Assembly (NCBI GenBank): GCA_022483015.1
Contig: JAKVOB010000001.1
Coordinates: 1,574,902-1,638,901, forward strand
Reading direction: 5' to 3'
Source: Atopobiaceae bacterium
GTDB taxonomy: Bacteria; Actinomycetota; Coriobacteriia; Coriobacteriales; Atopobiaceae
DNA: 64,000 nt
The notes under the pieces are model-generated. The model was not told where the DNA came from and made no database searches. It worked only from the letters and a program-made list of their open reading frames with translations. Within the stretch, counting starts at the first letter, position 1; each line of letters starts with the position of its first letter. The position numbers and the translations under genes were made by a program. Shown here piece after piece: positions 45,996-57,999 of this stretch.

Positions 45996-46439
45996 TCAGG
46001 CACCGCTAGAACCGAAACCGCCCGAGCCGCGTTTCGTGCCCTCGAGATGGTCCACCTCAACGAGCTCGACGACCGGAACCTTCTGGATGACGAGCTGGGC
46101 GATGCGCTCGCCACGCTCGATGATGATGTCACGGTGCGGGTCGAGGTTGATGGCGACCACCTTGAGCTCGCCCCGATACGCAGAGTCGATGAGGCCGGGT
46201 GTGTTGGCCATGGAAAGGCCCTGCTTGAGAGCCAGACCGCTCCTTGGTTGCACGAAGCCCGCATATCCCTTGGGAATGGCGACGGCAAGGCCGGTCGAGA
46301 TGAGCCTTCGCTCGAAGGGAGCGAGGGTCACCTCCTCGCTCGACCTGAGGTCGAGGCCCGCATCCCCCTTGTAGGCATATGAGGGAAGCTCGACATCAGG
46401 GACCAGACGCTGAATCTGTACCTCAATCTTCTTGCTCAT
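45996..46439 (-). CDS. dut: dUTP diphosphatase
   Basis: A 147-residue trimeric dUTPase that hydrolyses dUTP to dUMP, limiting uracil in DNA and feeding thymidylate synthesis. All five motifs are visible: DAGLDLRS, PRSGLALK, GLIDSAYRGELKV, RIAQLVI and GSGGFGSSG. It overlaps nrdR by 4 nt, linking dUTP control to the ribonucleotide reductase regulator. Confidence 0.95.
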   Translation of the reverse strand: MSKKIEVQIQRLVPDVELPSYAYKGDAGLDLRSSEEVTLAPFERRLISTGLAVAIPKGYAGFVQPRSGLALKQGLSMANTPGLIDSAYRGELKVVAINLDPHRDIIIERGERIAQLVIQKVPVVELVEVDHLEGTKRGSGGFGSSGA

Positions 46440-46885
46440 TGCTCAATCCTCCGAAGTTCCTCGGTGAACTCGTCAAGGTCATGGAAATCTCGATAGACGG
46501 AGGCGAAGCGCACATAGGCGACCTTGTCCAGCGTGAGGAGACGATGAAGCACCATCTCACCGAGCTTCTCCGAATGAACCTCGGTGACCGAACGGTCCCT
46601 GAGCTCGGAGACGATGTCGTCGATGAGCGAATCGAGGGAGCTCACGGGAATGTCACGCTTCACGGTGGCCGTCATGAGCCCACGCATGAGCTTCTGCCGG
46701 TCGAAGGTCTCATGAGAGCCATCGCGCTTCACGACGATAAGGGGCATCTCCTCGCGACGCTCATAGGTAGTGAACCTAAAGCCGCAGCTGATGCACTCTC
46801 GACGACGCCGGATGGCATCATTGTTCTCGGAGGGACGCGAATCCACGACCTTGGACTCTTCGCACCCGCATCTGGGACAGCGCAT
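46436..46885 (-). CDS. nrdR: Transcriptional repressor NrdR
   Basis: A 149-residue ATP/dATP-sensing repressor of ribonucleotide reductase genes. The N-terminal zinc ribbon has CPRC (3-6) and CISC (31-34), and the ATP-cone follows from VVKRDGSHETFDRQKL. Its targets carry NrdR boxes; no nrd gene lies in this window. The dut gene follows directly with a 4-nt overlap. Confidence 0.95.
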   Translation of the reverse strand: MRCPRCGCEESKVVDSRPSENNDAIRRRRECISCGFRFTTYERREEMPLIVVKRDGSHETFDRQKLMRGLMTATVKRDIPVSSLDSLIDDIVSELRDRSVTEVHSEKLGEMVLHRLLTLDKVAYVRFASVYRDFHDLDEFTEELRRIEQ

Positions 46886-46961: not shown

Positions 46962-47537
46962 TCAGCGGGCCGCCACGGACAGCTCCTGACCGACCGTCAG
47001 GGAGCCAGAGGAAAGGCTGTTCTCGGACTCGAGCCAATGCACCGTCTCTTGGTCAGAGAGCCCGTCAATGGGATGCGACCGGGCAAGGGACCAGAGCGAA
47101 TCTCCTTGTGAAACGACAATCTGGGTGGTCGAGAGTGAGCTGGTAGCCGTGGCCACGCCTTGCGACCGGAACGCATCGACGCCAAGGGTCACGGAAAGGC
47201 AGATTACCAGGGATGCGATAAGGAAACCAGCAGCAAGGCGATGGCTCAGGACCAACGCGGGACGCGCCGTCGGGGAAGCTGCGGCCGTAGCCAGCCGAAC
47301 ACGCATGCGAGGCGCAGCTGCGGAGGCAACGGCAGACGAGGCGGCACGGGTGCGGGTGCGGGCCATCGGGACATCCGGTGCCGAAGGGCGCGCGTGCGTT
47401 GGATGGGCGGTGACGGCCACGGACCTAGCGGGGCTGCTGGAGGCACCGCCTTCAAGGAGTGTCAGACGAGGACGTGAGACATCAAGAGCCGAGCTCCCCT
47501 CGTACACGTACTCACTGCTGCATGCCTGCTGAACCAT
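46962..47537 (-). CDS. LysM-domain membrane protein divergent from lexA, probable SOS cell-division inhibitor
   Basis: A 191-residue protein: about 95 Ala/Arg/Thr-rich cytoplasmic residues, one membrane helix (about 98-120), and a C-terminal LysM domain (about 138-190, IVVSQGDSLWSLAR) on the outside. Position and architecture match YneA (Bacillus), DivS (Corynebacterium) and Rv2719c/ChiZ (Mycobacterium), SOS-induced proteins that delay septation and lie beside lexA. Three LexA boxes fill the intergenic region. Sequence similarity outside LysM is low, so the function rests on context. The start at 47537 follows GGGGAG. Confidence 0.75.
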   Translation of the reverse strand: MVQQACSSEYVYEGSSALDVSRPRLTLLEGGASSSPARSVAVTAHPTHARPSAPDVPMARTRTRAASSAVASAAAPRMRVRLATAAASPTARPALVLSHRLAAGFLIASLVICLSVTLGVDAFRSQGVATATSSLSTTQIVVSQGDSLWSLARSHPIDGLSDQETVHWLESENSLSSGSLTVGQELSVAAR

Positions 47538-47599: not shown

Positions 47600-47669
47600 G
47601 GAACGGATGTTCGCATCTATTGTGGAGCGTACGTATGTTCGTGTCAAGCGAGAATCGAACATCTGTTTG
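47600..47669. promoter_or_regulatory. Three LexA (SOS) boxes spaced exactly 28 bp apart
   Basis: Boxes GGAACGGATGTTCG (47600-47613), CGTACGTATGTTCG (47628-47641) and CGAACATCTGTTTG (47656-47669) each match CGAAC-N4-GTTCG at nine of ten positions. Successive boxes start 28 bp apart. They lie between lexA and the LysM gene and probably control both. Confidence 0.85.
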
Positions 47670-47695
47670 CATGGTGATCTGACAAGGCGTAAGAT
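47667..47695 (+). promoter_or_regulatory. lexA promoter overlapping the third LexA box
   Basis: TTGCAT (47667-47672) and TAAGAT (47690-47695) with a 17-bp spacer, 25 bp before the lexA start codon. The -35 box overlaps the last bases of the third SOS box, so LexA binding would block polymerase. Confidence 0.75.
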
Positions 47696-47719: not shown

Positions 47720-48376
47720 ATGTCTGAGAAGCGGTCCATGAGCAAGCGCCAGCGCCAGATCTATGACTTCATCTGCTCCTATACCAACGAGCACGCATAC
47801 CCGCCGTCAGTGCGAGAGATTGGCGCCGCGGTAGGTCTCGCGTCTCCCTCAACGGTGCATGCGCACCTCAAGTTCCTCGAGGAGAACGGCTACATCCATA
47901 GGGACCCCAACAAACCGCGTACGATCGAGGTCACCGAAGGGTCGACGCCCTCCGATTCCAAGCCCGGCCTTGCCAGCGTCACGCAGGACCTCGATGCGAA
48001 CACGGTGACGCTTCCCCTGGTCGGCCGTGTCGCCGCAGGCGTCCCCATCCTCGCAGAGCAGAACGTTGAGGAGACGCTCACCTTCCCGACCTCCATCGTG
48101 GGTGACTCGAGTTCGTTCATCCTCAAGGTCCACGGCGAGTCCATGATCAACGCGGGGATACTCGACGGCGACTACATCGTCGTCCGCGAGCAGTCCACGG
48201 CCCGAAACGGCGAGATCGTGGTGGCCCTCATCGGTGAGGAGGCCACCGTGAAGACCTTCTACCGTGAGAAGGACCGCATCCGACTTCAGCCCGAGAACGA
48301 CCACATGGAGCCCATCTATGCCGACAACCCAACCATCCTCGGCCATGTCACGGCGCTCATCAGGTCGATGTCCTGA
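47720..48376 (+). CDS. lexA: LexA repressor
   Basis: A 218-residue SOS repressor. The N-terminal winged helix (KRQRQIYDFICSY ... PPSVREIGAAVGLASPSTVHAHL) binds the operators upstream. Self-cleavage occurs at Ala106-Gly107 in RVAAGVPI, with catalytic Ser141 (HGESM) and Lys178. RecA, encoded at 56830, triggers the cleavage. ATG 47720 has AGGAGGGGC ahead. Confidence 0.97.
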   Translation: MSEKRSMSKRQRQIYDFICSYTNEHAYPPSVREIGAAVGLASPSTVHAHLKFLEENGYIHRDPNKPRTIEVTEGSTPSDSKPGLASVTQDLDANTVTLPLVGRVAAGVPILAEQNVEETLTFPTSIVGDSSSFILKVHGESMINAGILDGDYIVVREQSTARNGEIVVALIGEEATVKTFYREKDRIRLQPENDHMEPIYADNPTILGHVTALIRSMS

Positions 48377-56829: not shown

Positions 56830-57948
56830 CTATTCCTTCTTCGCTTCGGGAGCCTTGTTGGCGGCGGGGTCTTCAGCATCCGTGACTGGCGCCCCCACGC
56901 GATCGTCCTCAAGGTCCAGTCCGCAGGCCACGCGGACCTTATGCTCGATCTCAGAGGAGAGGTCTGGGTTGGACCGGAGGAAGTCCTTGGCAGCCTCGCG
57001 TCCCTGGCCAAGGCGTTCTCCCTCATAGGTATACCAGGCCCCAGACTTGTTGACGATATCCTCGTCAGCCGCCATGTCGAGGATGGACCCCTCCTTCGAG
57101 ATGCCTGTGCCATACATGATGTCGAATTCGGCCTGCTTGAAGGGAGGAGCGACCTTGTTCTTGACGACCTTCACCCGGACGCGGTTGCCGACCACCTCGC
57201 CATTGACCTTGATGGAGTCGATCCGCCTGATGTCCATGCGGACGGAGGAGAAGAACTTCAGGGCACGGCCACCGGGCGTGGTCTCGGGGTTGCCGAACAT
57301 GACGCCGATCTTCTCACGGAGCTGGTTGATGAAGATGCAGGTGGTGTTCGACTTGGCAAGCGAGCCAGCGAGCTTGCGGAGCGCCTGGCTCATGAGACGG
57401 GCCTGGAGTCCGACCGTGGTGTCACCGATCTCTCCCTCGATCTCCGCGCGCGGCACGAGGGCCGCCACGGAGTCGACGACAACGACGTCGATGGCTCCGG
57501 ACCGGACGAGCATGTCACAGATCTCGAGGGCCTGCTCACCGGTGTCAGGCTGTGATATGAGGACCTCGTCGATGTCTACACCGAGCCGAGCGGCATACCC
57601 GGGGTCGAGGGCATGCTCGGCGTCTATGAACGCGACGACGCCGCCCATCGCCTGGGCCTCTGCCAGGATCTCGAGCGAGAGCGTGGTCTTGCCGGAGGAC
57701 TCGGGACCGTAGATCTCGACGATACGCCCGCGCGGGACGCCGCCTATGCCGAGAGCCGCATCAAGGGCCACCGATCCTGTGGGAATGGCCTCGATCTCGA
57801 GGTCGGGACCATCGTCCCCATACTTCATGATGGCACCCTTGCCGAACCTCTTCTCGATCTCAGCGGTGGTCGATTCGATCATTCGATCGCGCTCTGCGCC
57901 GGTGCTCGGCCCATGGACCTCTTTGGTGACGTCCTTGCTCTTGGACAT
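56830..57948 (-). CDS. recA: Recombinase RecA
   Basis: A 372-residue recombinase that forms filaments on single-stranded DNA, exchanges strands and triggers LexA cleavage. Walker [10 protein letters not shown], Walker [13 protein letters not shown], the L2 and [22 protein letters not shown] regions and the C-terminal acidic tail are all normal. The ATG at 57948 follows GAGGGGA. A SOS-controlled promoter and a second, PafBC-like promoter element lie upstream. recX follows. Confidence 0.97.
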
Positions 57949-57970: not shown

Positions 57971-57999
57971 ACTATAACCGAACATTCGTTCGTAGTCAA
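57971..57999 (-). promoter_or_regulatory. recA proximal promoter with a perfect LexA box in the spacer
   Basis: On the minus strand TTGACT (57994-57999) and TATAGT (57971-57976) are 17 bp apart. The SOS box CGAACGAATGTTCG (57979-57992), a perfect CGAAC-N4-GTTCG, fills the spacer, so LexA would block polymerase directly. Confidence 0.9.

Follow-up and report, generated by a model that had tools for sequence, protein, structure and literature searches.

Three candidate LexA boxes between lexA and a divergent LysM gene in an Atopobiaceae bacterium, and the conserved spacing of the two nearest lexA

Three LexA sites upstream of lexA and of a divergent YneA-like LysM gene are known from Bacillus subtilis and Clostridium thermocellum (PMC8457756). 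As far as the available part of that account describes them, lexA-yneA of the former and Clo1313_1449/1450 of the latter resemble the locus presented here in having three sites, a divergent LysM SOS gene and a shared upstream region. Given that the three-site divergent lexA-yneA region is already published, the arrangement itself is known and our locus adds a member, carrying the three-site type of lexA control into Coriobacteriia. It differs from the two described cases in its class, in a single spacing of 27-31 bp between the two boxes nearest lexA, and in that the divergent partner lacks a LysM domain in some families. Firmicutes have been credited with one to three boxes per lexA promoter (PMC2248561, published in 2008); the excerpts of that paper state neither a spacing rule nor an overlap with the -35 element for the Firmicutes lexA footprint, and its Actinobacteria set comprised 17 sequences, 11 of them from Corynebacterineae. 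The lexA promoter of Streptomyces venezuelae likewise carries more than one LexA box (lexA1 and lexA2), with differing measured affinities, but there the boxes number two, and LysM goes unmentioned in the text available from that study (PMC9380542). For Mycobacterium (lexA/Rv2719c, that is, ChiZ) and Corynebacterium (lexA/divS) the likeness lies in the SOS-induced division inhibitor, and the passages on these genera do not describe a three-box array.

The window, by which we mean the entire 64-kb stretch of DNA, from a gut-type Atopobiaceae bacterium, that was analysed, contains three sites that match CGAACN4GTTCG at nine of ten positions: box A at 47600..47613 (GGAACGGATGTTCG), box B at 47628..47641 (CGTACGTATGTTCG) and box C at 47656..47669 (CGAACATCTGTTTG). 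They lie exactly where the original prediction had put them, and a motif scan of the window bore out its further statement that each has one mismatch whereas the box at recA (57979..57992, CGAACATTCGTTCG), which precedes the likely start of that gene at 57948 by 30 nt, is perfect. The neighbours, too, are as had been claimed, judging by open reading frames and Pfam domains: lexA on one side (47720..48376, + strand; 218 aa with LexA_DNA_bind and Peptidase_S24) and on the other a divergent LysM protein (46962..47537, - strand; 191 aa, a hydrophobic stretch preceding the LysM domain), after which the next gene is nrdR (46436..46885, - strand). The order lexA/LysM/nrdR is also that of Mycobacterium. 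All three boxes fall within the 182-bp gap between the likely start of the LysM gene (47537, - strand), which has GAGGGGAG upstream of its ATG, and that of lexA (47720, + strand). A longer, mechanically called ORF would have the LysM gene begin at 47672, beside box C; we dropped this start in favour of 47537.

Seven sites with no more than one mismatch occur in the window against 2.23 expected, a number that none of 100 shuffles reached, and arithmetic from the single-site rate gives an expectation of about 7e-6 per window for three sites inside 70 bp. Across the whole genome, one-mismatch boxes are not enriched (90, against 152 for a backwards-read control pattern). We therefore do not take single one-mismatch sites as evidence; it is the cluster that counts. 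Within this genome the motif is found at recA (perfect) and at lexA (three nine-of-ten sites), which fits the Gram-positive type of LexA operator, and boxes also stand upstream of ORFs that we read, by eye from their translations, as ruvC, dinB and uvrB, so that together with recA the set looks like an ordinary SOS regulon. Elsewhere in the genome, the sole perfect box besides that at recA (L336 1246-1259; G000:C1:505545-505558) was assigned no downstream gene by a simple ORF filter. Two one-mismatch boxes 34 bp apart (L335 1314-1361; G000:C1:1830313-1830360) precede an ORF of 443 aa that appears radical SAM-like by eye, and a one-mismatch box, GGAACGGGTGTTCG (L339 1207-1220; G000:C1:1856006-1856019), is found some 180 nt ahead of an ORF judged MraZ-like by eye. 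In the part of the source available, LexA is reported to bind an mraZ site of gut-metagenome origin (PMC3998124).

How are the boxes placed relative to the promoters? A promoter scan returned TTGACA-17-CACAAT around box B, with 10 of 12 matches. The -35 hexamer TTGACA (47642..47647, - strand) directly abuts box B and the -10 hexamer CACAAT (47619..47624, - strand) follows after 17 bp, so that box B takes up the spacer of the putative LysM promoter, whose transcript would be expected to start under box A. On the opposite strand, the final TTG of box C, whose right half reads GTTTG instead of GTTCG, would supply the beginning of a putative lexA -35, TTGCAT (47667..47672, + strand), which we infer from conserved geometry; the first base of a putative -10, TAAGAT (47690..47695, + strand), lies at +34 counted from the start of box C. 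This -35 is weak (three of six positions), and the promoter scan makes no call there. By position relative to these promoter-like elements the LexA sites are common to both divergent promoters, and we consider it likely, arguing from sequence, that SOS control runs from this gap in both directions, through two promoters set back to back that contain the three LexA operators.

The conserved geometry emerged from a survey in which C was defined as the last box with a right half ending in TTG and the offset of TANNNT was taken from the start of C. TANNNT stands at exactly +34 in 77/109 loci of the window's family (130 examined), in 28/48 from other Coriobacteriia (68 examined), in 39/44 from the Clostridia-like set (58 loci examined), in 15/16 from Bacilli (18 examined) and in 15/18 from other Actinomycetota (26 examined), while means at other offsets range from 0.3 to 2.7. 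These figures pool loci that are not always one per genome and include three genomes of another Bacillota class. From one 30-locus set, L353 and L358 were left out (the assumed lexA position being wrong near a contig end), whereas L368, where lexA appears to be misplaced from the same cause, and L391 were kept and counted as misses; the distance histograms of the survey contain only loci with both a TTG-ending box and a -10 at +34. In the window's family the -10 stands at +34 in 76 genomes; position 13 of box C is T in all 76 of them and the TTG is intact in 75. Box C would thus be off consensus because its right half doubles as the lexA -35, and its missing base is, on these counts, better read as a -35 element than as a simple setting of affinity. 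The region thereby offers a testable reason for the departure of C from consensus.

In Coriobacteriia, a TGTCAA-like -35 with at least five of six matches directly abuts a box in 116/198 genomes; a good -35 of this type beside a box is missing in 64/198, which counts against the promoter model, and in other orders TTGCAT-like variants, noted by eye, tend to occur slightly farther out. A TANNNT-like -10 for the LysM gene is irregular in position across the window's family, which again counts against the model, as does family f10, where C keeps GTTTG in 13/13 and yet a -10 at +34 is present in just one of 13. In f2, which we take to be Eggerthellaceae-like (the family names of f1, f2 and f10 are tentative), no genome has a -10 at +34 from C, and C reads GTTCG in 13/16. 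Here a promoter-like pair, TTG...TATAAT or TATACT, flanks box A in all 15 genomes that have one, with a -35 of varying quality. In line with the promoter model, C thus seems no longer to serve as a promoter element in f2, and the candidate lexA promoter there lies at box A instead.

To what extent is the array itself conserved? Our sample of lexA upstream regions came from 198 genomes of Coriobacteriia, with 130 in the window's family and 68 outside it, and in these regions we sought, within 220 nt, lax sites with an AC-N4-GT core and at least seven of ten matches. At least three such sites are present in 182/198 regions, compared to 1/198 for the reversed control and a mean of 0.26 for Markov shuffles, and a pair of sites 26-31 bp apart is found in 162/198 (reversed control: two). 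In all comparative tests available the boxes act like LexA operators, which supports reading them as probable binding sites for LexA.

The original prediction had further proposed an exact 28-bp register of all three boxes, with cooperative or phased binding of LexA. The only relative from the same genus has spacings of 28 and 27 bp. As a rule, however, the 28/28 register fails: the A-B distance is 22-25 bp in 73/100 genomes of the window's family and 28 bp in just 6/100, although it is 28 bp in 13/13 f10 genomes and in the 15/15 f2 genomes with a box A. With A-B so variable, a tight triple register is ruled out as the conserved unit. What did survive of the proposed conservation is B-C, which measures 27-31 bp nearly everywhere the pair is present: in 96/103 genomes of the window's family (130 examined), 13/13 of f10 and 16/16 of f2 (27-29 bp in both families), 7/7 of f3-f9 (13 examined) and 25/26 from other orders. 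The pair was sought at 24-34 bp for these family counts, which were redone with limits of 14-75 and 22-52 bp. Within 24-34 bp it is absent in 27/130 genomes of the window's family, including six of 32 genera entirely, a further point against the promoter model. Nor do the boxes share one face of the helix, as simple arithmetic rules out: 28 bp corresponds to 2.67 turns, so that B and C lie on different faces, with a phase that is fixed but non-zero.

We also followed the phase in Clostridia. The 391 genomes provisionally assigned to this class were scanned for a module in which a gap of any length from 22 to 52 bp separates one box from a GAACN4GTTTG box that has its -10 at +34. The module was matched in 69 genomes, the backwards control scoring 0 throughout (69 of 70 matches were analysed; an overlapping second match of 41 bp in G463 was dropped). 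B-C distances were 27-31 bp in 32 genomes, 33 in one, 38-42 in 32, 47 in one and 49-51 in three. At a period of 10.5 bp the concentration of phase is R = 0.84, whereas 20000 draws from a uniform null never exceeded 0.40. It is still 0.65 when the 69 modules are collapsed into 22 clusters, a procedure that joins modules of equal length only and so favours length diversity. A-B distances are unphased (R = 0.06, 26 loci). Helical phase is fixed for B-C but, in Clostridia, not for A-B, and the window occupies the shortest rung of the B-C ladder, Coriobacteriia having the single rung of 27-31 bp. This ladder is the interesting part of the finding. The literature searched, in which subscription journals were thinly covered, gave no account of B-C phasing, of a helical ladder, or of the overlap of box C with the -35 as a cross-phylum rule.

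What sets the B-C distance? One scenario, which we regard as doubtful and which follows the original prediction for B-C only, is that LexA dimers at these two boxes influence each other, by direct contact or via bending of the DNA, so that cooperative, helically phased binding dictates the spacing. The Clostridia ladder is what it would lead one to expect, as is f2, where B-C stays at 27-29 bp in 16/16 although C is without a lexA -35; that the pair is kept there without a promoter role for C favours the boxes as the carrier of the constraint. Yet spacings of 28, 29, 40 and 50 bp place the dyads roughly 70-120 degrees apart rather than on one face, direct contact would be unable to span all three distances, A-B shows no phase, and LexA of B. 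thuringiensis bound two adjacent or overlapping boxes independently and non-cooperatively, at least in the part of that study available (PMC4551915). Phased binding does make a precise prediction: the interval from B to C should tolerate an insertion of 10 bp but not one of 5 bp. It is also conceivable, and we hold to this only tentatively, that the geometry runs from promoter to promoter: the LysM -35 would hold B in place and the lexA -35 would do so for C, the boxes taking over the promoters' phase, and the A/T-rich linker would be a shared upstream element or serve to avoid a clash of two polymerases. The linker is indeed A/T rich, a TGTCAA-like -35 lies 0-3 bp from B in 67/69 Clostridia modules (the remaining two are without GTCAA), and the -35 hexamers would be some 2.4-2.6, 3.5 or 4.5 turns apart by arithmetic on the window's geometry. 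Phase measured from GTCAA to C is equally sharp (R = 0.85 versus 0.84), leaving the promoters as a possible carrier. Against this stand f2, with B-C at 27-29 bp despite a candidate lexA promoter at box A, and f10, with the same B-C range although 12/13 genomes are without a -10 at +34.

Both scenarios assume that the spacing does something. A functionless inheritance from a common ancestor has some points in its favour: many modules are near copies, as the collapse into 22 clusters attests, and the rungs cluster on a 21-row LexA tree, with at least four changes on the best tree against a shuffled mean of 7.6. Nevertheless, mere inheritance strikes us as improbable. Linkers are diverse (87 distinct among 103 in the window's family), phase persists after collapsing, and the four changes are steps of roughly 10 bp between which few distances fall. 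The well-supported branches of the tree force fewer changes (two for the 38-41 group and one for the 28-33 group), so that a few rung jumps are proven, not many. We give about an even chance to the reading that B-C is an ancient module common to Bacillota and Coriobacteriia: the helical phase of the LexA boxes would couple the divergent SOS promoters, the spacing could jump by whole turns (about 29, 40 and 50 bp) but seldom by half turns, and the constraint would persist where the lexA promoter seems to have moved, as in f2. If this coupling were true, whatever sits at one box, LexA or polymerase, would influence the promoter opposite and so link synthesis of the repressor to the division brake.

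In the mechanism that we propose for the window, box B in the -35/-10 spacer and box A over the start would let LexA lock the gene for the division-brake candidate at two sites, whereas LexA would repress its own gene at one, the right half of C being the start of the lexA -35. The consensus of C would be compromised by this double duty as operator and -35. Cleavage of LexA driven by RecA would then open both promoters. A graded switch, as originally predicted, might operate here, and the LysM protein may be what arrests division.

By its anatomy the divergent protein looks like YneA or ChiZ and is, on that basis, a candidate division brake. Pfam LysM scores 26.9 bits in the window's protein (cut-off 20.9) and was confirmed in four relatives as well, the membrane segment being assigned by eye only. 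A LysM-like divergent ORF is present in 161/198 Coriobacteriia. As an obligatory partner the LysM gene can be rejected, since 37/198 are without such an ORF, including 16/16 f2 genomes, all of which retain the B-C pair. Three of the genomes that have no LysM-like ORF (G033, G072 and G079) show nrdR as the first ORF, and none of these has a B-C pair. In f2 and f4-f9 the LysM ORF is mostly replaced by a short ORF with a hydrophobic end and without LysM. Some of these short membrane-type ORFs (for example at L247, L262 and L273) share G[TS]SAL with the LysM proteins. More broadly, a G[TSN][SAT]AL motif is found in 17/34 non-LysM ORFs from all families and in 58/123 LysM proteins, and a profile of LysM-protein N-termini matches many of the non-LysM ORFs weakly. 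This suggests that the LysM domain may have been lost within one SOS-linked protein family, a loss that would fit the apparent dispensability of the LysM domain of ChiZ, which seems not to need it in the available part of the relevant study (PMC3989709).

The number of boxes also varies upwards. In seven genomes (L022, L194, L009, L040, L018, L174 and L197) a fourth box (GTGTATGAT or similar) lies 24 bp past the start of C, in overlap with the lexA -10, and one actinobacterial lexA upstream region (L388) contains seven lax boxes in about 145 bp.
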